From Cladocopium goreaui (Eukaryota > Sar > Dinophyceae > Suessiales > Symbiodiniaceae): a DNA stretch of 64,000 nucleotides. Of the stretch, positions 37,772 through 63,401 are shown in pieces (position 1 is the stretch's first letter; each line of letters opens with the position of its first letter). Location of the stretch: the NCBI GenBank assembly GCA_947184155.2, contig CAMXCT020000253.1, positions 155,050 through 219,049 on the forward strand, written 5' to 3'. The notes beneath the pieces were generated by a model that worked only from the letters and a program-made list of their open reading frames with translations, did not search any database and was not told the origin of the DNA. The position numbers and the translations under genes were made by a program.

Positions 37772-40700
37772 GTGGCAGGGACCTTTTGGTATAATGCGAC
37801 CGTCCTCCTTTCTGATCTTATCCAGTGGTTGTAGCTCTTTTCCTTCCTCTTCCTTTTCTTTCCTTACTTGTTCATCTATTCTTTCCCAGTGCTTTCTTCA
37901 CCCTCATTACAGTTGTTATCTCTGGGTGCTTTTGGGACCCAAGATTCTCCTTGCCTCCCATGTGTTCCAATTTGTGTCCTTATTCAGCTATTTTTTTCTC
38001 CCTTTTCTTTCTTCAATTTNNNNNNNNNNNNNNNNNNNNNNNNNNNNNNNNNNNNNNNNNNNNNNNNNNNNNNNNNNNNNNNNNNNNNNNNNNNNNNNNN
38101 NNNNNNNNNNNNNNNNNNNTATATATATATATGTGGCAGGGACCTTTTGGTATAATGCGACCGTCCTCCTTGTCTCCCCATATTGTATTGCTGTTCTTTC
38201 TCTGGCTGCTCTCTCTCTCTCTCTCTTTCTCTTTCTGTTTCTCTTTTTTTTGTCTCTCTCTCTCTCTCTCTTTCTTGCTGTTCTTTTCTCTGCGTGCATT
38301 TTTGGGCATACGATTCTCTTCGTCTCCCATCTGTGTCCCTACTTGTCTCCCTTGTTCTCTCCAATTTGTATCCTTAATTCCCTCACCATTGCTATTCTTA
38401 TCATTTCTTCTCTTAGGCTGCTTTCTGTACTTGTCTCTTAATTGTTGTGCTCGTCTCTGTGCGCTTTGGGACGAAACCTATTGTCCATTACATTCCCTTA
38501 TCCTCGGTCTCTGCTTCCTCTTGTCTTTCCTCTTCCCTTTCTTTCCTTACTTGTTCATCTATTCTTTCCCAGTGCTTTCTTCACCCTCATTACAGTTGTT
38601 ACCTCTGGGTGCTGTTAGGACCCAAGATTCTCCTTGCCTCCCATGTGTTCCAATTTGTGTCCTTATTCAGCCAATTTTTCTCCCTTTTCTTACTCCATTT
38701 TACTTTCCTACTCATTCTACTCTCTCCGTTGCTGTTTCTGTCTAGGCTTTAGAACCTTCAGGTGCTTTGGGGCCATAAACATTACCGAGTCCATCATCCG
38801 GGTCACCAGCATTTTGGGACGGAGAGGAGAGTGTTTCTCCTCTTTCCTTTCTTTCCTTACTTGTTCCTCTAGTTTTTCCCAATGCTTTCTTCGCTTCTCT
38901 CCTCATTAATTACTGTTGTTCTCTCTGGGTGCTTTTGGACCCTGGACTCCTGATTCTTCTCGTCTCCCATTTGTGTCCGTGTTTGTTCCCCTTGTTCTCT
39001 CCAAGTTGTATCCTTCATTTCCTTCCCATTGCCATTCTTGTACCAGGCTGCTTTGGGAAGAATGGATTTCCTGGTCTTTGTTTCTCCCTACTTGCCTTCC
39101 TTTGTGGAAGTCTGTGTGATTTGGGACGAAACCATACGAAACCCATTATCCGTTACTCCGTTACATTCCCTTACCCTGGGTCCCTACCATATGTTACCCT
39201 ACTTGCCTTTCTACTAGTCCCCAACTTGTCTCGGGATCATCTCTCCACTACCGTGCTTCTTTCCAGGTCTCCAGCATTTGGGACGGAGAAGAGAGCTTTT
39301 ATCCTCTTTCCTTTCTTTCATTACTTGTCGCCCTAGTCTTTCCCATTGCCTTCTTCACTTCTCTCCTCACTACCGTTGTTCTCTTTAGGTGCTTTTGGGA
39401 CCCAAGATTCTCCTTGTCTCCCACGTGTGTCTAGGCTTTAGGACCTCTAGGTGCTTTGGGGCCATAAACATTCCCGAGTCCTTCATTTGTGTTGCAGTCC
39501 TCCTCTCTCCATTCCTTTTGTCCATCCCTGTTACTGTTCTTCTTCCTGGATGCTTCTGGGCACAGGATACTCTTCGTCTCTTCGTCTCCCATTTGTTTCC
39601 GTGTTCGTTCCCCTTGTTGTCTCAAACTTGTTTCCGTACTTCTCTATCTATTGCTATTCTTTTCTCTGGGTACGTTTGGGACGCAAAGTTCTCCTTGTTT
39701 TCCACCTGTTTCCGTGCTTGTCTCCCGTGTTGGCTCCTACTCCCTGCCTGAGTTCTGTTTCTCTGGGTGCTTGATGGCAGCGGATTCTTCTTGTCTGTCA
39801 TTTGTTTCCATGCTTAGCTGCTTGTCTCCTTGTTTGTTCTACTACTCCCCCCCCCCCGCGCTCAGTGTTCTTCGTTTGGTTGCTTTGGGTACAGGACTCT
39901 CCTTGTGTCCCATCTGTTTCCGCGCCCGTCTCTCTGCTTGTTCCCAACTTGTTTTGACACTTCTCTCTTCATTGCTGTTGTTCTCTCTGGGTGCTTCCGG
40001 CGCACAGGATGCTCCTTGTCCCTTGTCTGTTTCCGTACTTGTCGTCCTTGTTGTCTCCATTTCGTGCCCTTCTTTCTTTCTTTCTTTCTTTCTCTCTCTC
40101 TCTCTCTTGCTGTTCTTCTTTCTAGGTGCTTGTTGGGACCCCTGATTCTTCTCGTCTGCCATCTGTTTCCGTACGTGTCTTCCTTGTTCTCTCCAAGTCG
40201 TATACTTGTCTCCCTTGTTCTCTCCAAGTTGTATCCTTAATTCCCTCCCCATTGCTATTCTTCTCTCAGGCTGCTTTGGGAAGAATGTTTCTCCCTACTT
40301 GTCTTCCTTCGTATAAGTCTCCTTGCTTGTCTCTCAATTGATGTGCTTGTCTCTGTGTGCTTTGGGACGAAACCTATTATCCATTACATTCCCTTACCCT
40401 CGGTTACTACCACATGTTACCCTACTTGCCTTCCTACTTGTTTCCAACTTATCTCCTTATCATCTCTCCACTACCGTCCTTCTTTCCGGGTCTGCAGCAT
40501 GTGGCACGGAGAGCAAGGTTTCTTTCCTCTTCCCTTTCTTTCCTTACTTGTTCATCTATTCTTTCCCAGTGCTTTCTTCACCCTCATTACAGTTGTTATC
40601 TCTGGGTGCTTTTGGGACCCAAGATTCTCCTTGCCTCCCATGTGTTCCAATTTGTGCCCTTATTCAGCCAATTTTTCTCCCTTTTCTTACTCCATTTTAC

Positions 40701-42215
40701 TTTCCTACTCATTCTACTCTCTCCGTTGCTGTTTCTGTCTAGGCTTTAGAACCTTCAGGTGCTTTGGGGCCATAAACATTACCGAGTCCATCATTTATGT
40801 CCCTTCCGTCACCTTGTTGCAGTGCTCCTCTTGGATCTTCTTGCCTCCCATCTGTTTCCATACTTGTCTCCTTGTCTGTTCCCAACTTGTTTCTTTATTT
40901 TTCTATCTCCATTGCGATTCTTCTCTCCGGGTGCTTTTGGTCAAAGGAATCTCCTCGTCTCCCGTTCCTCTCTCTCCATTGCTCAGTGTTCTTCGTTCTG
41001 GTGGCTTTGGGGACAGGACTCAAGTCTCATCTGTTTTCGTACTCGTCTCTCTACTTCACTCTCACATGTGGCTGTTCTCTCTGGGTGCTTCCGGGGGACA
41101 ATATGCTCCTTGTCCTCTGTCTGTCTCCGTGCTTATCCCCCTTGTTCTCTCCAACTCGTGCCCTTACTTCTCTCTTTCTCTCTCTCTCTCTCTCTCGCTG
41201 TTCTTCTCTCTAGGTGCTTATTTGGACACATGATTCTCTTCGTCTCCCATCTGTTTGCGTACTTGTCTCCCTTGTTCTCTCCAAGTTGTACTGTATCCTT
41301 AATTGCCTCCCCCTTGCTATTCTTCTCATTTCTTCTCTTAGGCTGCTTTCTGTACTTGTCTCTTAATTGCTGTGCTTGTCTCTGCGTGCTTTGGGACGAA
41401 ACCTATTATCCGTTACATTCCCTTACCCTCGGTCACTACCACATGTTACCCTACTTGACTTCCTACTTGTCCCCAACTTGTCTCCTTATCATCTCTCCAC
41501 TACCGTGCTTCTTTCCGGGTCACCAGCATTTTGGGACGGAGAGAAGAGTGTTTCTCCTCTTTCCTTTCTTTCATTACTTGTTGCTCTAGTCTTTCCCATT
41601 GCCTTCTTCGCTTCTCTCCTCACTACCGTTGTTCTCTTTAGGTGCTTTTGGGACCCAAGATTCTCCTTGTCTCCCACGTGTGTCTAGGCTTTAGGACCTC
41701 TAGGTGCTTTGGGGCAATAAACATTCCCGAGTCCTTCATTTGTGTTGCAGTCCTCCTCTCTCCATTCCTTTTGTCCATCCCTGTTGCTGTTCTTCTTCCT
41801 GGATGCTTCTGGGCACAGGATACTCTTCGTCTCTTCGTCTCCCATTTGTTTCCGTGTTCGTTCCCCTTGTTGTCTCAAACTTGTTTCCGTACTTCTCTAT
41901 CTATTGCTATTCTTTTCTCTGGGTACGTTTGGGACGCAAAGTTCTCCTTGTTTTCCACCTGTTTCTGTGCTTGTCTCCCTTGTTGATCCATTGCTCAGTG
42001 TTCTTTGTTTTGGTTGCTTTGGGGAAACGACTCTCGTTGTGTCCCATCTGTTTCTGCGCCCGTCTCTCTGCTTGTTCTCAACTTGTTTTGACACTTCTTT
42101 CTTCGTTGCTGTTGTTCTCTCTGGGTGCTTCCGGCGCACAGGATGCTCATCGGATGCTCCTTGTCTATTGTCTGTTTCCGTACTTGTCGTCCTTGTTGTC
42201 TCCATTTCGTGCCCT

Positions 42216-42251
<36 letters not shown>

Positions 42252-42850
42252 TGTTTCTTTCTCTCTCTCTCTCTCTCTCTCTCTTGCTCTTCTTCTTTCT
42301 AGGTGCTTGTTGGGACCCCTGATTCTTCTCGTCTGCCATCTGTTTCCGTACGTGTCTTCCTTGTTCTCTCCAAGTTGTATACTTGTCTCCCTTGTTCTCT
42401 CCAAGTTGTATCCTTCATTCCCTCCCCATTGCTATTCTTCTCTCAGGCTGCTTTGGGCAGAATGCTTCTCCCTACTTGTCTTCCTTCGTATAAGTCTCCT
42501 TGCTTGTCTCTGTGTGCTTTGGGACGAAACCTATTATCCGTTACATTCCCTTACCCTCTCTCTACTACATGTTTCCCTCCAAGCGGTCTCCTTATCCTCT
42601 CTCCACTACCGTGCTTCTTTCTAGGTCTCGAGCATTTTGGGACGGAGAAGAGAGCTTTTCTCCTCTTCCCTTTCTTTCATTACTTGTTCCTCTAGTCTTT
42701 CCCAGTGCCTTCTTCCCTTCTCTCCTCATTACTGTTGTTCTTTTTGGGTGCTTTTGGGACACAGGACTTTCATTGTCTGCAGTTTGTTTCCTTATTTTGC
42801 TACGTAGTTTAATATTGGTGGCTTTTTTGGGTGGATATATAGTTTAGTAT
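37770..42850. repeat. Pyrimidine-rich satellite with higher-order repeat
   Basis: About 5 kb in which the plus strand is strongly C+T-rich. The basic unit, roughly 110-130 bp, contains TTCTCTCTGGGTGCTTTTGG, GATTCTCCTTGTCTCCCA, TGTTTCCGTACTTGTCTCCC and TTGTTCTCTCCAACTTGT. A larger repeat is visible: 39389-39720 recurs at 41642-41973 (offset 2253) and 40126-40330 recurs at 42303-42510 (offset 2177). Stretches of pure CT and CTTT occur inside. Plus-strand frames of up to about 300 codons are open only because pyrimidine-rich DNA lacks stop codons; I do not regard them as genes. Confidence 0.9.
38020..38119. other. Assembly gap (100 N)
   Basis: Exactly 100 N. The sequence after the gap (TATATATATATGTGGCAGGG and the following 30 bases) repeats the sequence just before the satellite at about 37760-37808, so the gap sits in a local duplication or a misassembly. 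Confidence 0.98.
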
Positions 42851-43740: not shown

Positions 43741-46000
43741 TTCGGAAAATTCAAAAACATCAAAAAAAATATGCATTCACTTTTTGGTGATTTCATTATT
43801 TTTTGAATATTTTGAATTTTTTGAATTTCAAAATATTCAAAATATTCAAAAAAATTAGCCAATACAAAAATATTTTGAATATTTTGAATTTTTTGAATTT
43901 CAAAATATTCAAAATATAATGAACTTCTCCCAAAAGTCTCTCTGAACCTCGTTTTTGGTGATTTCAAAATATTTTGAATATTTTGAATATTTTGAATTTT
44001 TTGAATTTCAAAATATTCAAAATATTCAAAAAAATTAGCGAATACAAAAATATTTTGTATTTTTTGAATTTCAAAATATTCAAAATATTCAAATAATTCA
44101 AAAAATATAATGAACTTCTCCCAAAAGTCTCTCTGAACCTCTTTTATGTGATTTCATTATTTTTTAAATATTTTGAATATTTTCAATTTTTTGAATTTCA
44201 AAAAATTCAAAATATTCAAAAAATTTAGCCAATACAAAAATATTTTCAATTTTTTGAATTTCAAAATATTCAAAATATTCAAAAAATTTAGCCAATACAA
44301 AAATATTTTGAATATTTTGAATTTTTTGAGTTTCACAATATTCAAAATATTCAAAAAATTTAGCCAATACAAAAATATTTTGAATATTTTGAATTTTTTG
44401 AATTTCAAAATATTCAAAATATTCAAAAAATTTAGCCAATACAAAAATATTTTGAATATTTTGAATTTTTTGAATTTCAAATTATTCAAAATATTCAAAA
44501 AAATTAAGCCCATACAAAAATATATTTTGAATATTTTGAATATTTTGAATTTTTTGAATTTCAAAATATTCAAAATATTCAAAAAAATTAGCGAATACAA
44601 AAATATTTTGTATTTTTTGAATTTCAAAATATTCAAAATATTCAAAAAAAATAGCCAATACAAAAATATTTTGAATTTTTTGAATTTCAAAATATTCAAA
44701 ATATTCAAACTATTCAAAATATAATGAACTTCTCCCAAAAGTCTCTCTGAACCTCGTTTTTGGTGATTTCAAAATATTTTGAATATTTTGAATTTTTTGA
44801 ATTTTTGACATTTTTTTGATGACGGTTTTTGAATTTCAAAAATTTCAAAATATTCAAAAAAATTGGCCAATACAAAAATATTTCGAATATTTTGAATTTT
44901 TTGAATTTCAAAATATTCAAAATATTCAAAATATAATGAACTTCTCCCAAAAGTCTCTCTGAACCTCTTTTTTGGTGATTTCAATATTTTTTAAATATTT
45001 TGAATATATTGAATTTTTTGAATTTCAAAATATTCAGAATATTCAAAAAAATTAGCCAATACAAAAATATTTTGAATATTTTGAATTTGTTTAATTTCAG
45101 AAATTTCAAAATATTCAAAAAAATTTTTTTTTTTTTTTTTTTTTAGCCAATAATATTTTGAATATAGTGAATTTTTTGAATTTTCAAAATCATTCACAAT
45201 TTGTCAAAAATTAGGCCATACAAAACTATTTTGGAAAATATTTTGAAATTTTTGAATTTCAAAATATTCAAAATATCATGAACTTCTCCCAAAAGTCTCT
45301 CTGGACCCGAACCTCTTTTTGGTGTTTCAAATATTTTTGGAATCTTTTTGAATATTTTGAATTCAAATTCACATATTTCAAAATTTAGGCCAATACAAAA
45401 ATCTTTGAATATTTGTGAATTTTTTGAATTTCAAATCATGCAAAAATTTAGCCAATACAAAAATATTTTGAATATTTTGAATTTTTTGAATTTCAAAATA
45501 TTCAAAAAATTCAAAAAAATTAGCCAATACAAAAATATGTTGAATATTTTGAATTTTTTGAATTTCAAAATATTCAAAAAATTTAGCCAATACAAAAATA
45601 TTTTGAATATTTTGAATTTCAAAATATTCAAAATATTCAAAATATAATGAACTTCTCCCAAAAGTCTCTCTGAACCTCGTTTTTGGTGATTTCAAAATAT
45701 TTTGAATATTTTGAATATTTTGAATATTTTTAATTTTTTGAATTTCAAAATATTCAAAATATTCAAAAAATTTAGCCAATACAAAAATATTTTGAATATT
45801 TTGAATTTTTTGAATTTCAAAATATTCAAAAAATTTAGCCAATACAAAAATATTTTGAATATTTTGAATTTTTTGAATTTCAAAATATTCAAAATATTCA
45901 AAATATTCAAAATATTCACAAAATATACAAATGCGACCGTCTGTCTCCTAAAAGCCTCTCTGAACCTCTTTTTTGGTGATTTCATTATTTTTTTGAATAT
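43740..46000. repeat. Palindromic AT-rich satellite
   Basis: About 2.2 kb made of TTTTGAATATTTTGAATTTT and its inverse (AAAATATTCAAAATATTC), joined by TTAGCCAATACAAAAATA linkers, so each unit can fold into a hairpin. A conserved spacer, GAACTTCTCCCAAAAGTCTC followed by TCTGAACCTC, recurs at about 43920, 44112, 44726, 44938, 45278 and 45650, with a diverged copy near 45945. Open frames on both strands (FKIFKIF, NILNIL) reflect the repeat. Confidence 0.95.
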
Positions 46001-56452: not shown

Positions 56453-56746
56453 AGGACTCAAGCACTTCTTTTCCGTTGTGCTAGACCCGATGGGTTTCAA
56501 ATCCAAACTGGCTTAGCCAGCACTTCATTGACATTTTCAAATTCTCAAAGACCAAATGGCATGGTCTATTGTTATGGACAGCTGCGATTTCTCAAATGGC
56601 ATGAGAAAATCAACAGCTAAAGACCGCCTTAGGACCCCAAGTGGCATGAGGTCTCTTTAGGACGGCTTTCACATGTATTTCACAGAAAAAGTTAAAGAAG
56701 GAAATGGAAATTGATCAGCAAGAATTGGAAAATGATCCCCCTTTCC
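56453..56746 (-). repeat. B2 terminal direct repeat of the retrotransposon
   Basis: 294 bp, identical base for base to 56833-57126 (offset 380). Its outer end borders a TA microsatellite (56438-56452), which marks the 3' boundary of the element. No target duplication is expected for a tyrosine recombinase. Confidence 0.92.
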
Positions 56747-56832
56747 GGGGGGGAGAGGTTGGGAAAGCTAAGAGCCTGGACAGCCCAACATGACGAAAAA
56801 GTGTCTCGTCCTAAATGTCGTGACGACTTTCA
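56747..56832 (-). repeat. A2 segment between the two B repeats
   Basis: 86 bp of unique sequence separating the identical B copies, starting with a run of eight G on the plus strand. In the split-direct-repeat model it should be a copy of A1, the 5' terminus of the element outside the window. Confidence 0.7.
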
Positions 56833-57126
56833 AGGACTCAAGCACTTCTTTTCCGTTGTGCTAGACCCGATGGGTTTCAAATCCAAACTGGCTTAGCCAG
56901 CACTTCATTGACATTTTCAAATTCTCAAAGACCAAATGGCATGGTCTATTGTTATGGACAGCTGCGATTTCTCAAATGGCATGAGAAAATCAACAGCTAA
57001 AGACCGCCTTAGGACCCCAAGTGGCATGAGGTCTCTTTAGGACGGCTTTCACATGTATTTCACAGAAAAAGTTAAAGAAGGAAATGGAAATTGATCAGCA
57101 AGAATTGGAAAATGATCCCCCTTTCC
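56833..57126 (-). repeat. B1 terminal direct repeat of the retrotransposon
   Basis: 294 bp, identical to 56453-56746. It begins 11 bp after the stop of the tyrosine recombinase ORF in element orientation. Confidence 0.92.
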
Positions 57127-57136
57127 ACGCCTCCAG

Positions 57137-58090
57137 TCATGGCCTAAAGGCCGTAGCTGGACATTGTTCAGCATATTTTTGAAGGCGTAATTTGTCATTG
57201 TCAGGCACTCTCAATTGGGGGACCTGTGCCAATCCATCTTCAAGATACAATCTTGCCACTCCCAGCGAGCGCCAACGCCCTCGCAGGAGAATGACATCGA
57301 TTGGCGTTCCTTCTTGCAAAAGGAACGTCGCGCCTCCGCGACGCAAGCTGTAAGGTTTCATTTTCAAATGTTGAATCCTGAAATATCGCATGTAATTTTC
57401 AAATTGATTTCGAAAATGCTGAGCTGAATAAGGCCAAAGTTTTTGACCTCTGAATTGACATTGCAAACACACCAAAGTGTTCAAAATATTGAGAACAAAA
57501 CTGTCACGAATTGAAACCGCTTCCTCTGTGCCCGTTCTCAAGCCAGACTTACTGCTCATCAAAGTAATAATACCTACAGAAGAAGAAAGTTCAAGATCTT
57601 TGTATTGAATTTCCATAAGCTCCCCTGTACGTAACATACAGTGAAAACCAATTGAAAAAAGTGCGGCAAAAGCAATATCCTTCAGTTCAACGGCCCTGGC
57701 GATAACAGCTTTAGCCAGAAGTAGAGTCATAGGTGGTGCTCTTTGCGGTGACTCTATACGTCGCCACGCTCGAAACATCTTCCAAGCTTGGCGGAGGATT
57801 CCTTTGATCTCTGGCCAGAAAAAATGCAAACCACTCAGACAGTCGGCGATTGAATTGACAGCTTCGCCTTTGCTCCATTCGAGCTCGATCCAATCGCAAA
57901 CTACTCCATCCAAATCATGTAAAGAATCATGTGATTCCAAAAATGGGAGGATTCTCCCCACTGCAACTTCATATCTTGACTTTGTCTTTGCTGTGACTGT
58001 AAAGTCTCGTAGACGTACCCCAGCTCTTTGCTGCTTTCTACCAGCTCTAGTTCTTGCTGCCAGCACAACCCTCGGAATGGTGCGCGGCAT
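57137..58090 (-). CDS. Tyrosine recombinase (YR) of the retrotransposon
   Basis: 317 residues from ATG at 58090. It would cut and rejoin the circular DNA copy of the element during insertion. The family's catalytic positions are visible: Arg154 in FHCMLRTGELMEIQ, Lys181 in SSKSG, Arg250 in KPYSLRRGGAT, Trp273 in RGRWRSLG (the His/Trp position) and the nucleophile Tyr282 in VARLYLEDG. The first residue of the usual His-x-x-Arg box is Tyr247 rather than His; I recall similar replacements in DIRS and Crypton recombinases. The N-terminal 120 residues match a core-binding helical domain. Its ATG overlaps the stop of the polyprotein (TGATG), so it is probably translated by reinitiation. One open frame without introns; probably intact. 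Confidence 0.9.
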   Translation of the reverse strand: MPRTIPRVVLAARTRAGRKQQRAGVRLRDFTVTAKTKSRYEVAVGRILPFLESHDSLHDLDGVVCDWIELEWSKGEAVNSIADCLSGLHFFWPEIKGILRQAWKMFRAWRRIESPQRAPPMTLLLAKAVIARAVELKDIAFAALFSIGFHCMLRTGELMEIQYKDLELSSSVGIITLMSSKSGLRTGTEEAVSIRDSFVLNILNTLVCLQCQFRGQKLWPYSAQHFRNQFENYMRYFRIQHLKMKPYSLRRGGATFLLQEGTPIDVILLRGRWRSLGVARLYLEDGLAQVPQLRVPDNDKLRLQKYAEQCPATAFRP

Positions 58091-58092
58091 CA
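58088..58092 (-). promoter_or_regulatory. TGATG stop/start overlap between polyprotein and YR
   Basis: The polyprotein stop TGA (58092-58090) and the recombinase ATG (58090-58088) share one base. Such overlaps allow termination-reinitiation. Mechanism inferred; the overlap itself is read directly. Confidence 0.8.
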
Positions 58093-61000
58093 AAGTCTGC
58101 TTCCCTTGTCAGTGGGGTTCTCTGCTGACCCCACGTGTGCATGGAGTAAAAAGGATCCCATTGCTAATTGAATTGCCCCAATCCGGTTCGCTAACGGCTG
58201 CAGGAGGTGGCTGCTAGTGCGACCTTTAGTTAATATATATAAACATACCATGCTGTCCTCAAGATGGAGCCATCTTTTCCTGATAGAAGTAATAGATCTG
58301 GATTTCCAAAGAAGAGTGTTAAGAACCATCTTCATCTCCAGGTAATTGATGTGTGATGTTTGGGACCATTTAACCGTAAAAAGTTGTTTCCATTGCCACC
58401 ACATTGCTTTAACAGATGCATGAGCTTGCGACTTTTGATTCAGTAAAGCCCCCGAGATTATCCTTACATCGGACCCTGTATGATTGACTGTAAGTCCCAG
58501 GTGCTGGACGATCTCAACGTCCTGAACTGGCTTGTCCACGTCGCCACCGTAACACAACCACCGCGTCAGCGGAACTTCCACCGACGGGTGAACTGTTGCC
58601 CCAGAGGCTAGTCCTAGTCTTCCAGCTATTTTGTCAGGGGTCATCCGAGGAACATACGCTTGCGCCATTGAGCTGGCAACAATTGCAAACGAAAACACTG
58701 AAAAAGAATCACCTACCAAGGAACAACGCACATCTTCCAAAAACCGCTTGCTTTTCTTTGCCTCTGAGGCGCTCATGCATGAAAGTGTATGACCAGGACC
58801 AAACCCCATAAGTAACTCCCGTTCAGAACTATCCAAGACTCTTGGGGGGAGAGATGCATGATGAAGTAGAAAAGCAGATTTGTATTGATATGGGGGGTAC
58901 CTGTATTCATCTGAGCGCCATCGCGACTGAGTTGCTTCGTCTGTCCTGGTCAAGCCTGCTGGCTTGGGAGGTGGTGCAGACCTTTTGATACATTTCATGA
59001 AAGTTGGAAATTTAACATTTGGGCCACCTTCCCAGGTCCACCCTGGGCGAATCCATTGCTTGGTGTCAATCTCCCTGCTGGTGGTGTAGGCTCTGAAATA
59101 ATTCTTTTCCGACCACAGCTGTAAGCCCTCCATCTCAAAAATAGGCTCCGACACCCAGGCAAAACGTGGTCTATTGTAAGGCAAACTATCACTAGGATCC
59201 AGTTTGACAGGGCAAATCCCCAGCTGGGAGGAGATTTCATCTCTAGCTGACTCATCCATCGACGCCACATTTTCAATGCAGAACTTTACCTTACAAAACG
59301 GGCTAAAAACTTGCTGGACCCACTGTAGCACCTCTAAAAGCTTCCAAAACAACTTTGAGCCTTCGCCCTCCAATTTTTTTCGAAAGGCGCGTGCCGAAGA
59401 CAAATGCACGCATGGAAAACCAGCGAAAAGATGAAGTTCCTCCACATGTGGCCACAGTGAAGCCCATCGTTGTACCTCAGCGTGATCAATCTTTTCGATA
59501 TCCAAAAGTTCCATTGTACCAGGCCAGGCAGTGCGCGTAACCCTGTTCGCATGCTTGCAGATTTCCACTGAAATGCGCCCTTCTGGCACCAAGCCCAAAA
59601 TATCATAAGCCCTAAACGAGCCGCCTATCCCATTAAAAAGAGAAACAACCAAAATAGGGCATTTAATAGGAAGTAGGCGAAGGTCATTTTTCATGCTCAC
59701 TAAGGAGCGGCCAGACCACGTCAACCCTTTGCTGACCGCTGCTGCTCCACCCGTTTCAGATGCGTCTGAACAGGTTACCTCTGAGTCATAAGTTGCTGTC
59801 AAATCCATCTGAATCAAGGGGGAAAGACATAGAAGCATCATCAATTCGCCATGTAAAATGTCCTTTTCTCTCGGGTTTGGCCAGGCCTTTTCTAGAACTT
59901 CCCAGGACCTTGATAGTGCTCCCATAGCTGCTCTCCGAAATTGCAACAAGAAAACCCACCTGCCCAAAATGATTTGTGCCTCCTTCTTACTCCACACTGG
60001 GTTCAGCAGATGGTGTATTGTAGCCAATGCCGTCCGCATGAAACGATCCGGGGATCCCCCCAATAATCCATTTTTGCCATCAACTCGGACTCCAAGTTCC
60101 GTGATACTATCACTACCCAAAACCTGTTTATCTTCAGCAGTTAAAACCCCCGTCATGCTCCATGCCTTCATGGCACGCTCCTGTAGCTCAACATCACCAA
60201 AGCCATGAGGTGGTCCACCAACGTCAGCAGACATAAAATTGTCCAGGTAGATTTGCCACCAGGACCGTGCCTCTGTACTTGCTGAAGTTACCTGAGCAAA
60301 CCACGGTGGCACAGCCCCGTCTTTCTTTAGCTCTAGCAGCGGGGGTAAGCCCTTAGAAAGAAGTATCTCCCGTGAAATAGCTTGCATTATTCCAACTGAA
60401 GATGACCATCCCATTGGCAATACCACGCATGAAGGCCTGAAAAACTTGTCTCTGTCACTCCCCGAAAAGCCCAGCAGGTCCCCTTTAACCTTAAAATTAA
60501 AACAGAAATAAGGGGACCAGCTTTCCGGGATAGAGAATAGATAGAACGCTGCGGACATATCTCCTTGTGACATAGTTATTTCTTCCCCCTCGCTAAGGCA
60601 GAGGGGGAGCCAGCCGGTTGCGCTTGGGAGACTTTGAATGTCACCCCGCAACACCGAAAAGATTCCGTTGACGGGGATAAGGTTCATGATTACTCTCAAA
60701 ACTGGCAAATTGGACTCTGTAAATTTTCCAGGTTTAATGACGCCGAACATGCCTGACAGATACTGACCCCGATCATCTGAAAAAACTTTTTCGTCGGGGA
60801 ACCAAGAAATAATGCCCCTGCTTGCTAAAAGGTTAAAAACTTCAAGCTCACTTCCCTTTGCAATATGAACCTTTGCTGAACATGGCGCATGACCCCTGTC
60901 CCGGGCATCAAGGAGGGACTCCTCAGGGTGTTCCATCAAAAAACGGGTCCTCCCTTTCAGAAAGGGCAAAATAGGGACAGACCCCCCATGACCTGCTGGT

Positions 61001-61845
61001 GGCAGGCCTTTCAGAATTTGCTCCGCTGTGAGAGGATAGGGGGCAAGAACTTCTTCCCCCGAATAAGAAACTTTCTTATCTTTTAAATCCCTTACAACTT
61101 CTTCAAAGGAAACCAGAGTGCATGGGTCACCTTCAAAAAACCGCCTTACCTTATCCTTAAGCTCCACCAGAATTGCTTTATGCACTTTTCCTGGCGCCCG
61201 TGCGAAGCCCGCGTTGGGGCTGTCATACAGCGCGTTGATGGCAGCGCAGCCGACAGCCACCCAGCAGTCGAGGGCCAGAGCATGGAAGTCGCAGGACTTC
61301 AAATCAGCGACACTCCATTTCAAGTTGCCTGGAAGTTGAACCGGCAGGGGGAACAAGCAGCCACGGTGGCCCGTGGCCGCTTGTGTGGGCCTAGCACGAG
61401 CAGGCTTGAAATAAAGCAGCTCTTCCCTCAACCCCCATGCCAGCTTTACTCCCAGTTCCAACAGGTTGCTCACGCCTGTAAGGCCCGCCAACCACTCGGA
61501 TTTGCTGCCAGGGTCTCTGCTTCCAAAAAGATGCGGCGCAGGTTGAGCACCGTCACATGCTGAATTCCTGCTTGAATTCGTATGGTCCGGGTGGACAGTT
61601 GCCAGCAGCTCCAAATTGGGTGCCTCGTTGCACGGCAGTCCAACCCCAGCCATCATAGCTTGAATCAAGGGCGAGGACGCTGACAAATCCAGCGCCGACG
61701 TTGCCAGTTCAAGACCGACACTCAACCCTCTGCTTCCGCCTTCTTGCTCTTGTCTCCTCCTCCTCTTTCTCCTTGATCTACCCAGGCACTCCACTGGCCC
61801 TTCTGGCCCTTTCCTTTTCCTTTTCCTTTCTTTCCTTTGCCCTTT
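58090..61845 (-). CDS. RT - RNase H (split) - C5 DNMT polyprotein of the retrotransposon
   Basis: Numbered from the first Met after Gag (ATG at 61656), this ORF has 1188 codons. RT motif A is SQGDMSAAFY (Asp366), motif B LPMGWSSS (413-420), motif C YLDN (470-473; the family norm is YxDD). A thumb-like region follows. RNase H starts with TCSDASETGG (Asp631). Then comes a complete C5 cytosine methyltransferase (about 665-1000). RNase H resumes with INYLEMKMV (Glu1107), LHLEDS (Asp1134) and SAENPTDKGSR (Asp1183). The frame is open upstream of 61656 and lies in -1 relative to Gag, so it is probably made as a Gag fusion by frameshifting near 61845, or by reinitiation at 61656. The still more upstream open part of this frame (to 63252) overlaps Gag and has no coding sense. 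Confidence 0.85.
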   Translation of the reverse strand, partial: KGQRKERKRKRKGPEGPVECLGRSRRKRRRRQEQEGGSRGLSVGLELATSALDLSASSPLIQAMMAGVGLPCNEAPNLELLATVHPDHTNSSRNSACDGAQPAPHLFGSRDPGSKSEWLAGLTGVSNLLELGVKLAWGLREELLYFKPARARPTQAATGHRGCLFPLPVQLPGNLKWSVADLKSCDFHALALDCWVAVGCAAINALYDSPNAGFARAPGKVHKAILVELKDKVRRFFEGDPCTLVSFEEVVRDLKDKKVSYSGEEVLAPYPLTAEQILKGLPPAGHGGSVPILPFLKGRTRFLMEHPEESLLDARDRGHAPCSAKVHIAKGSELEVFNLLASRGIISWFPDEKVFSDDRGQYLSGMFGVIKPGKFTESNLPVLRVIMNLIPVNGIFSVLRGDIQSLPSATGWLPLCLSEGEEITMSQGDMSAAFYLFSIPESWSPYFCFNFKVKGDLLGFSGSDRDKFFRPSCVVLPMGWSSSVGIMQAISREILLSKGLPPLLELKKDGAVPPWFAQVTSASTEARSWWQIYLDNFMSADVGGPPHGFGDVELQERAMKAWSMTGVLTAEDKQVLGSDSITELGVRVDGKNGLLGGSPDRFMRTALATIHHLLNPVWSKKEAQIILGRWVFLLQFRRAAMGALSRSWEVLEKAWPNPREKDILHGELMMLLCLSPLIQMDLTATYDSEVTCSDASETGGAAAVSKGLTWSGRSLVSMKNDLRLLPIKCPILVVSLFNGIGGSFRAYDILGLVPEGRISVEICKHANRVTRTAWPGTMELLDIEKIDHAEVQRWASLWPHVEELHLFAGFPCVHLSSARAFRKKLEGEGSKLFWKLLEVLQWVQQVFSPFCKVKFCIENVASMDESARDEISSQLGICPVKLDPSDSLPYNRPRFAWVSEPIFEMEGLQLWSEKNYFRAYTTSREIDTKQWIRPGWTWEGGPNVKFPTFMKCIKRSAPPPKPAGLTRTDEATQSRWRSDEYRYPPYQYKSAFLLHHASLPPRVLDSSERELLMGFGPGHTLSCMSASEAKKSKRFLEDVRCSLVGDSFSVFSFAIVASSMAQAYVPRMTPDKIAGRLGLASGATVHPSVEVPLTRWLCYGGDVDKPVQDVEIVQHLGLTVNHTGSDVRIISGALLNQKSQAHASVKAMWWQWKQLFTVKWSQTSHINYLEMKMVLNTLLWKSRSITSIRKRWLHLEDSMVCLYILTKGRTSSHLLQPLANRIGAIQLAMGSFLLHAHVGSAENPTDKGSRL
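58650..59660 (-). other. C5 cytosine DNA methyltransferase domain inside the polyprotein
   Basis: Motif I LVVSLFNGIGGSF (S-adenosylmethionine binding, 672-679), then VEICKHANRV (motif II position), HLFAGFPCVHLSSAR (motif IV, catalytic Cys749, codon 59412-59410), FCIENVASM (motif VI, Glu795), YNRPRFAWVS (motif VIII, Arg829-Pro-Arg831), a target-recognition stretch, LLMGFGPGHTL and LVGDSFSVFSFAIVASSMA (motif X, Gly982-Asp-Ser). All residues I expect for catalysis are present. It would methylate C5 of cytosine, possibly in the element's own DNA copy. It has no introns, and its motifs differ from the gene A enzyme. Confidence 0.9.
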
Positions 61846-63401
61846 TGCTCCTTTCCCTTTCCTCTCGGCCTGTTGTCGTAGGCCCATTCTCCTCCTTGCC
61901 AAGGCGATCTGGAAGGCCAACTTCCCTTTCCGCCAGCCTTTTCCACCTGTCGCGCGTGGCGCTGGGCCGACAGCAACACGTGTGGGGGCGCGGCGGAGTC
62001 GTCCTCCTCTGCAAACACTTCCAGATGCCTGGCTGTCTGCCATCCCTGCTTTGTCGCTGTATGGATCGCCATGAGACGGGCGGCCATCACATCGGCTAGT
62101 TCCGCCAGCCGCCCATCTCTCAGCAGATCTAGGGATCTGGCTAACATCGCCAGCTCCTTGCAGTCGCGGCCCTTGCTGTCCATCTGAGGCTTCAATACCA
62201 ACTGGAAGTAGGTCAGGATTTTCGGCCTCTGACCGCGTAATCCCAAGGCTTCGTAGCCTTCTTCGACAACCCCATCCACCGACAGCCGCTCGACGGCCAG
62301 CTCCTCCAACATCTTGTAGACGGAGCCCGGCGATCGTTGCGACCTTTTCCGGAGGGGCGCCATCAGGCTCTCGTCCCCTGAGGAACTTCGACCCCTGCTC
62401 GACCTCTCGCTGTCTGAGTCCGTGGAGTTCTCCTTCTTTTTGTGCCGCCGTCTCCTGCTGCGGGATCGACTTCGGGATCTTCTCTTCTTCTTCTTCTCGG
62501 ATCTCTCCTCCACCGCATTCCTGAGACGTGCGGCCTTGGCCAACGTGTCGCCCAGGGTCTTCTTCTTCTTCTTCTTCGTTTTCTTTACCTCCTCCTGATC
62601 TGTCTCTGAGTCTATTGTCTGTACCTCCTCCTTCACCTTCTTTAAGGGGACCAGTGCCTGTGAGGCTGAGGCGGCCGGTCTGCCACCAGCACCAGCCCGG
62701 GGCTCCCGTGGGGAGTCTGCCCGTGCCGTGCCTGGCGACACCACTGGCTCTGCAAAGGAAACCCTTCGGGCTCTCAGCGCGCTCAACCTCTTTTCCACTG
62801 GAGTTTCGCCCAAAGGCGCGCCACGTCCAGCTCCTCCCGTAGGAGAGCGCGGATCTTTGCGCTTCTTTTTCAACTCTTCCAGTTCCATCTCCTTTCCCTT
62901 TGCAATGGCCTTCCTTGCAGTCGCATTCAGCCACTCTGCTTCTAGCTCTCCAGGTGGATACCATCTGAATTTGCGCAAGTGAAGACCAGCTTCTTCGTCC
63001 AAAGGGCAACCCCCCTCTGCACTGGGGTAACAAATATGTACGCGGTGACGACCATCCTTGAAATACTTCTCCGCCTTCTTCTTCTCGGCCGCGGATTCGG
63101 ATCCAAGCACCTTCACTTCCACCCAAATTCCTGTGTCGCGGGAAACCGTTCCCAGCACTAGGAGGGCGACCAGCGGTGGAAGCTCTTCTTCCGGTGTCTC
63201 TGGATCCTGAAACTCGATGACCGATCCTGCAGGTAGATGTCGGGTCCTCCAAAAAGCAGCCTCCTCTACATTGTAATCCGTGACCCTGTTGGGTTTTGGT
63301 TGTTTCTCCAGGGCCTCTTGGATGTCATCTACTGTCGGATGACGCCCATCTTCGTCGTCTGAATTCAGGACAAGGGACGGGTGCTCCAGCACAGTGGCCA
63401 T
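61722..63401 (-). CDS. Gag-like protein of the retrotransposon
   Basis: 559 codons from a true ATG (63401) to TGA (61722). The N-terminal third is acidic, then contains LPAGSVIEFQDPE and VSRDTGIWVEVKVLG, which could form an SH3-like barrel. Next is a Lys/Arg/Ser-rich part including RRSRSRSRSRRRRHKKK (about 310-330). A helical region (YKMLEELAVERLSV to RLMAIHTATKQGWQ, about 370-460) could be the capsid core. The tail is a Gly/Lys repeat (KGKGKKGKGKGKGQKGQW) that probably binds RNA in place of a CCHC zinc knuckle, which is absent. I assign Gag from position and composition, not from a recognised domain. It precedes the RT frame, overlapping it in the -1 frame. Confidence 0.7.
   Translation of the reverse strand: MATVLEHPSLVLNSDDEDGRHPTVDDIQEALEKQPKPNRVTDYNVEEAAFWRTRHLPAGSVIEFQDPETPEEELPPLVALLVLGTVSRDTGIWVEVKVLGSESAAEKKKAEKYFKDGRHRVHICYPSAEGGCPLDEEAGLHLRKFRWYPPGELEAEWLNATARKAIAKGKEMELEELKKKRKDPRSPTGGAGRGAPLGETPVEKRLSALRARRVSFAEPVVSPGTARADSPREPRAGAGGRPAASASQALVPLKKVKEEVQTIDSETDQEEVKKTKKKKKKTLGDTLAKAARLRNAVEERSEKKKKRRSRSRSRSRRRRHKKKENSTDSDSERSSRGRSSSGDESLMAPLRKRSQRSPGSVYKMLEELAVERLSVDGVVEEGYEALGLRGQRPKILTYFQLVLKPQMDSKGRDCKELAMLARSLDLLRDGRLAELADVMAARLMAIHTATKQGWQTARHLEVFAEEDDSAAPPHVLLSAQRHARQVEKAGGKGSWPSRSPWQGGEWAYDNRPRGKGKEQKGKGKKGKGKGKGQKGQWSAWVDQGERGGGDKSKKAEAEG
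61806..61860 (-). promoter_or_regulatory. Candidate -1 frameshift sites at the Gag/RT junction
   Basis: In Gag frame there are three heptamers of the X-XXY-YYZ type: A AAG GGA (61860-61854), A AAG GGC (61845-61839) and A AAG GGC (61812-61806). A -1 slip at any of them enters the RT frame, which is open from here to the recombinase. Which one works, and whether a downstream structure assists, is not visible. Confidence 0.5.

Follow-up and report, generated by a model that had tools for sequence, protein, structure and literature searches.

As described in the sections consulted of de Mendoza et al. 2018 (PMC5890265), SymbioDIRS-Dnmt3 elements of Symbiodiniaceae are intronless DIRS-like retrotransposons under purifying selection that carry a Dnmt3-type C5 DNA methyltransferase (DNMT) within Pol, in two architectures that differ in domain order. 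The DNMT shares one open reading frame (ORF) with the reverse transcriptase (RT), the tyrosine recombinase (YR) occupies a separate ORF, and the repeats follow the order A-coding-B-A-B. The same sections describe KnitGypsy-Dnmt3 of Klebsormidium, an independent capture of Dnmt3 into a retrotransposon Pol, which differs in being of the LTR/Gypsy (long terminal repeat) type (PMC5890265). DIRS1-like elements are likewise YR retrotransposons with a methyltransferase in Pol, but the consulted text arranges RT, ribonuclease H (RNase H) and methyltransferase in a row, between inverted-repeat ends and with internal complementary regions (PMC3266345), and their Dam-like methylase is of a structurally unrelated adenine type (PMC5890265). 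The element analyzed here lies in a 64,000-nucleotide window of Cladocopium goreaui (assembly GCA_947184155.2, contig CAMXCT020000253.1, positions 155,050 to 219,049). This Symbiodiniaceae element is a YR retrotransposon that fits the SymbioDIRS-Dnmt3 type, and its cytosine DNMT is placed inside the RNase H domain.

The first-pass annotation of this window was correct in stating that DNMT capture by dinoflagellate retrotransposons had already been reported, namely for DIRS elements in the part of PMC5890265 consulted. That published text places the DNMT in Pol and does not state that it is inside RNase H; Figure 1e may draw it between RT and RNase_H. No statement of such nesting was found in the consulted parts of PMC5890265, PMC3266345, PMC6338049, PMC12344493 and PMC11453091 or in the literature searched. 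DNMT capture is known; the placement of the DNMT within the RNase H b2-b3 loop seems, as far as this search reaches, undescribed.

The Pol ORF (P0001; 61656..58090, minus strand, as for all features of the element) encodes RT, a first piece of RNase H, the DNMT, a spacer and a second piece of RNase H. Its start was set at the first ATG after the Gag stop, and the frame stays open further upstream. The RT region, residues 226-620 (59806..60990), carries the active-site motif YLDN at 473-476. The first RNase H piece, residues 628-648 (59722..59784), comprises strands b1-b2 with the catalytic D634 (codon 59766-59764) and was recognized by hhalign and by the modelled strands. It is followed by the Dnmt3-like C5 methyltransferase, residues 667-1006 (58648..59667), with FNGIGG at 677-682, FPC including C752, ENV at 798-800, RPR at 832-834 and GDSF at 985-988, and by a spacer, residues 1007-1089 (58399..58647), that separates the DNMT from the second RNase H piece. 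The latter, residues 1090-1191 (58093..58398), contains b3-aA-b4-aB-aD-b5 with the catalytic E1110, D1137 and D1186 plus H1177, and forms the end of Pol; no adenine methylase follows RNase H, unlike in DIRS1-like elements. The first-pass annotation had reported that the first Asp and the Glu of RNase H stand 476 residues apart with a complete C5 DNMT between them, and D634 and E1110 enclose the DNMT at exactly this distance.

Relatives without DNMT were sought with residues 151-642, a query that leaves the DNMT out, and 107 proteins were returned. The weakest of them was P0221 (706 residues), a DIRS-like Pol that has no DNMT and is 28% identical to the RT query over 68% of its length; used as a query in turn, it yielded the DNMT-less set of 106 proteins (P0221-P0326). 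No DNMT-less RT and RNase H closer than these were found, and some of the proteins also carry a YR domain (PF00589). None of the 106 matched the family DNMT profile, including P0278, which a motif pattern had flagged as possibly DNMT-bearing. Their RNase H is contiguous and conserved, the first D being kept in 103 proteins (gap in 3), the E in 102 (one S, gap in 3), and the third and fourth D in 102 each (gap in 4); in the 102 proteins having both, D and E are 43-136 residues apart.

Profile-profile comparison indicates that both flanking pieces are homologous to the one contiguous RNase H of these relatives. In the full-length hhalign comparison, the relatives' RT through SDASSSG aligned to Pol residues 226-641 (E 3.7e-50). 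The second piece alone gave a probability of 99.8% (E 1.9e-28, 101 columns) and the first piece alone 89% (E 2.2e-6, 29 columns), compared with 0.2% for the DNMT segment and at most 0.3% for five column shuffles as controls. A hidden Markov model (HMM) of the DNMT-less RNase H matched P0001 at 1084-1190 (3.1e-22) and 102 of the 220 proteins P0001-P0220. Structure prediction, which the first-pass annotation had proposed as a check, agreed with this picture. The AlphaFold model of Pol (mean predicted local distance difference test score 88.1, predicted template modelling score 0.85) places strands 631-635 and 639-648 (b1-b2) before the DNMT and b3-aA-b4-aB-aD-b5 after it, with confidence on both sides, and the secondary structure of the two pieces is that of a modelled contiguous DNMT-less relative. 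Type I RNases H carry their catalytic D-E-D-D on b1, aA, b4 and the last helix, and according to the alignment and the model D634, E1110, D1137 and D1186 fall on the matching elements in this order. The two pieces are predicted to form a single closed RNase H fold, the DNMT being a domain of its own. We conclude that the DNMT and a spacer of about 80 residues were inserted in the b2-b3 loop of RNase H long ago.

The age of this arrangement can be judged from its relatives. The alignment comprised 61 sequences and took in 60 of the 120 matches listed among 462, the aligned relatives being 37-62% identical to the window Pol. E1110, H1177 and D1186 were present in 61/61, D1137 in 60/61 and D634 in 60/61 with one gap, and the D-to-E spacing was 466-481 in the 60 sequences having both. 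The DNMT residues P751, C752, E798, N799, V800, R832, G985 and D986 were likewise found in 61/61. The spacer carries a conserved NHTGSDVR stretch, in which G1064 and D1066 are invariant (61/61) and model confidence is low at 1065-1072; it is possibly a nucleic-acid-binding loop.

For a wider count, 153 proteins were taken from P0002-P0220 (the window's own P0002 included) that contain a [SATVC]DAS motif followed by at least 60 residues, and nine proteins with shorter tails after the motif were set aside. The DNMT match begins 23-50 residues after the first-Asp motif in 148 of the 153; in P0035 and P0080 the motif was caught too early, at a chance DAS, and the DNMT comes later, and judged by eye P0172 and P0181 look frame-shifted and P0205 looks cut after motif I. 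The insertion point is the same across the relatives found. Identities in RT and in DNMT rise and fall together (r 0.906 over 54 of the 61 sequences; none of 999 permutations as high). In an unrooted RT tree of 45 proteins, one branch with support 100/100 separates 28 DNMT-family members from 17 DNMT-less ones; P0018 was excluded from this tree for its length, and the DNMT label was inferred for P0216, which ends three residues past the Asp, and for P0205. One old DNMT insertion with no confirmed loss fits these data best.

Eight deep RT branches (P0198, P0205, P0206, P0210, P0211, P0212, P0214 and P0216) are 26-33% identical to the window RT. In six of them a DNMT match closely follows the first Asp of RNase H. 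By eye, motif I can be seen in P0205; P0216 breaks off just past the Asp. These branches may include the second published SymbioDIRS-Dnmt3 architecture. The relatives also include gene models labelled Skav, a prefix that we take to denote Fugacium/Symbiodinium kawagutii. A viral contig scan with P0001 found no relative.

Cladocopium is a coral-symbiont alga, and at least 44 matching stretches were found in its 1.17-Gb assembly, 37 of them stop-free, with several representing pieces of one copy. From the stop-free ones 22 near-complete copies were picked, so that an open frame in 22/22 is a matter of choice; they contain the apparent near-duplicate pairs L009/L010, L012/L013, L022/L023 and L027/L028. 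All five RNase H residues are kept in these 22 copies at a spacing of 473-478, as are the DNMT residues F677, P751, C752, E798, N799 and R832, and G985 is kept in 21. One copy, L007, codes for the Cladocopium goreaui protein P0018 (955 residues), with 735 residues at 100% and another 228 at 97.4%, pointing to this species as the host. The test for selection rests in effect on one informative pair, L011/L012, for which nonsynonymous and synonymous rates (dN/dS) were 0.010/0.142 in RT, 0.009/0.181 in the DNMT and 0/0.211 in the second piece of RNase H, the last with 12 synonymous and no nonsynonymous changes.

The possibility that an assembly or annotation artefact joined unrelated genes was considered, since the assembly does contain duplicates, as is evident from a near-identical second copy that has its flank in common with the first. 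The same arrangement recurs in many contigs of the genome, and 125 of the 219 retrieved proteins hold a DNMT and then the second RNase H piece, many others being fragments. The number of separate sequences effectively refutes an artefact.

Several observations count against a nested protein in which both enzymes work. The Pfam scan of the query Pol matched DNA_methylase as the sole family, and no Pfam RNase H was found in it or, with a cut-off of E <= 0.1, in 30 members of the family; RT and RNase H were shown by profile-profile comparison instead. Of the profiles that the first-pass annotation had named for such searches, DNA_methylase was found and RVT_1 was matched in 8 of the 30 family members at this cut-off, and RNase H was seen by comparison with the DNMT-less relatives and not by Pfam. 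For RNase H in 30 DNMT-less relatives, the Pfam comparison gave DNA_pol_viral_C alone, in 14 (best 0.0025). In the full-length hhalign comparison, the second piece appeared only as a secondary alignment (b3-to-end on 1090-1191; 0.1%, E 0.7). The closure of the two pieces into one RNase H is a step that we infer from the model. In a fold search with the full Pol model the listed matches were DNMTs, apart from two RT chains among the 50 that Foldseek gave. The RT motif YLDN (60238-60249) departs from the usual YxDD. Among the 150 family proteins in which the motif was placed by its spacing (the window's own counted twice), 141 have YLDN and five have YLDD (P0131, P0198, P0205, P0206 and P0210), whereas 83 of 89 DNMT-less relatives have YIDD or YVDD. 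The second catalytic RT Asp is changed nearly family-wide. In the first RNase H piece, L011 and L012 differ by two synonymous changes and one nonsynonymous change (dN/dS 0.015/0.087 on three changes). Between the near-duplicates L012 and L013, all six changes in the counted regions are nonsynonymous. Finally, several predicted gene models of relatives, P0050 among them, follow Pol as far as about 58450 and go on in the recombinase, omitting most of the second piece; this is either a gene-prediction error or another transcript form.

Some of these points would suit an RNase H inactivated by the insertion, with the element using host RNase H and the DNMT as the sole working part of the region. 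An insertion of 448 residues in a catalytic domain could disrupt it, Pfam recognizes no RNase H, and the gene models just mentioned lack most of the second piece. This explanation is nevertheless very improbable in view of the five residues D634, E1110, D1137, H1177 and D1186, each of which is replaced in at most one of the sequences that cover it and in none of the 22 chosen copies, of the 12 synonymous and no nonsynonymous changes of the second piece in the one informative pair, and of the confident model on both sides of the DNMT. A different explanation has RNA splicing, protein splicing or protein cleavage take out the DNMT segment ahead of RNase H action, leaving no nested end product, and the eukprot gene models of relatives, which often cover only part of residues 600-1188 (53-97%), could be taken in its favor. 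The parts seen to be skipped in relatives' gene models such as P0050, however, lie in the second RNase H piece and not in the DNMT. No stop interrupts the DNMT frame in any of the 22 copies, which were picked for lacking stops, and the consulted text of de Mendoza et al. (PMC5890265) describes these DNMTs as intronless. Pfam shows no protease or intein domain, splice and cleavage sites not having been searched for. We regard such removal as very unlikely. A nested RNase H and DNMT, both working, is the explanation that we hold to be probable, and the domain-in-domain fusion in a YR retrotransposon put forward in the first-pass annotation is supported by the homology of both pieces in profile comparison, by the predicted structure, by the conservation of the catalytic residues and, to a limited extent, by signs of selection.

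The remainder of the element conforms to a YR retrotransposon with split direct repeats. Upstream of Pol, a basic, K/R-rich ORF (61722..63401) overlaps the upstream part of the open Pol frame; it matched no Pfam family above the cut-off, and a Gag-like role is suggested by its position. The YR ORF (57137..58090; Phage_integrase in Pfam, 2.1e-7) begins with an ATG that overlaps the Pol stop by one base (TGATG) in the window copy. This overlap was dropped as a conserved coupling signal, most other copies being different. Downstream lie the repeats B1 (56833..57126, 294 nt), A2 (56747..56832, 86 nt) between the two B copies, and B2 (56453..56746, 294 nt), which forms the 3' end of the element and is 100% identical to B1. 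The window element's own A1 falls outside the window and was read from the near-identical copy L010, in which the 5' A1 matches the piece between B1 and B2 over 69 nt (98.6%), giving the layout A1-coding-B1-A2-B2 over 7752 bases (1468-9219 of L010). B-type repeats were found in 18/22 loci (93.9-100% identical) and 5'-3' matches of A type, of 64-86 nt, in 14/22. A comparison of the complete copy L010 with itself on both strands showed no repeats inside the element other than the direct A and B ones, the inverted matches being in its 5' flank, and of the 36 inverted pairs of the window the 25 listed are in AT-rich repeats outside the element. The inverted ends and internal complementary regions of DIRS1-like elements were thus not seen. 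Ngaro elements also have split direct repeats, in a Gag-Pol-YR order, and differ in being without a methyltransferase. PAT elements share the split direct repeats as well and, according to the consulted text, can carry the YR inverted (PMC3266345).

A near-identical copy on C835 was considered as proof of recent transposition and rejected, because the window copy shares with it also a 3' flank of at least 2.5 kb below 56453 at 99.2% identity, which makes the two a segmental duplicate or two haplotypes instead of two insertions. The identical B repeats are a better sign of the element's youth. Elsewhere in the window, the two strands of 37825-42624 are extremely unequal in composition (GC skew near -0.3 and AT skew near -0.55), with long plus-strand ORFs; this stretch is pyrimidine-rich on the plus strand and perhaps a tandem array. 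Positions 44001-46000 are very AT-rich (18% GC), between flanks of 34% and 44% GC.

These features suggest a pathway in which Pol would reverse-transcribe the element RNA, RNase H would remove the template, the tethered DNMT would add CG methylation to the new DNA, and the recombinase would then integrate it. Methylation of complementary DNA (cDNA) was already proposed in 2018 for SymbioDIRS-Dnmt3 in the part of PMC5890265 consulted, and we lean slightly towards such a self-methylation step. Two points tell against it: the ratio of observed to expected CpG in Pol (0.59) lies between those of two other window parts (0.53 and 0.70), so that CpG depletion was rejected as a methylation footprint of the element, and the CG methylation reported in yeast (PMC5890265, in the part consulted) concerns isolated DNMT domains of other SymbioDIRS-Dnmt3 copies. 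The DNMT might instead act mainly beyond its own cDNA, on host chromatin, RNA or competing DNA, in which case the nested protein would be just as real but the nesting without functional meaning. The lack of CpG depletion matches the lack of a CpG deficit reported for the DIRS type, and retrotransposons without a DNMT expand as well (both in the consulted part of PMC5890265). This explanation is possible though doubtful, as the DNMT is tied to the enzyme that makes the cDNA and has diverged in step with it, and as its relatives' domains do act on CG DNA in yeast.

The first-pass annotation suggested that the split RNase H might couple minus-strand completion to methylation of the new DNA. Since the loop at the insertion site is naturally variable in length, already spanning 43-136 residues in DNMT-less relatives, tolerance alone can explain the position of the DNMT, and this position probably reflects tolerance. 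Nesting may also protect the DNMT from loss, since RNase H would be broken along with it by many deletions, an entrenchment in line with the absence of any confirmed DNMT-less member in the clade. That the nesting is itself functional, with RNase H and DNMT as one machine on the nascent duplex, the closing of RNase H positioning the DNMT for methylation before integration and the DNMT locked in since the origin of the clade, appears unlikely. The family also warns that both parts of an RNase H split in this way may escape Pfam searches. With its two separable active sites on a single polypeptide, the element opens the published idea of a self-methylating retrotransposon to test. Taken for itself, the arrangement shows one entire catalytic domain carried within another in the Pol of a retroelement, apparently retained over deep divergence, and the roughly three-fold variation in the length of the same loop in DNMT-less relatives shows how such an accident could be tolerated.

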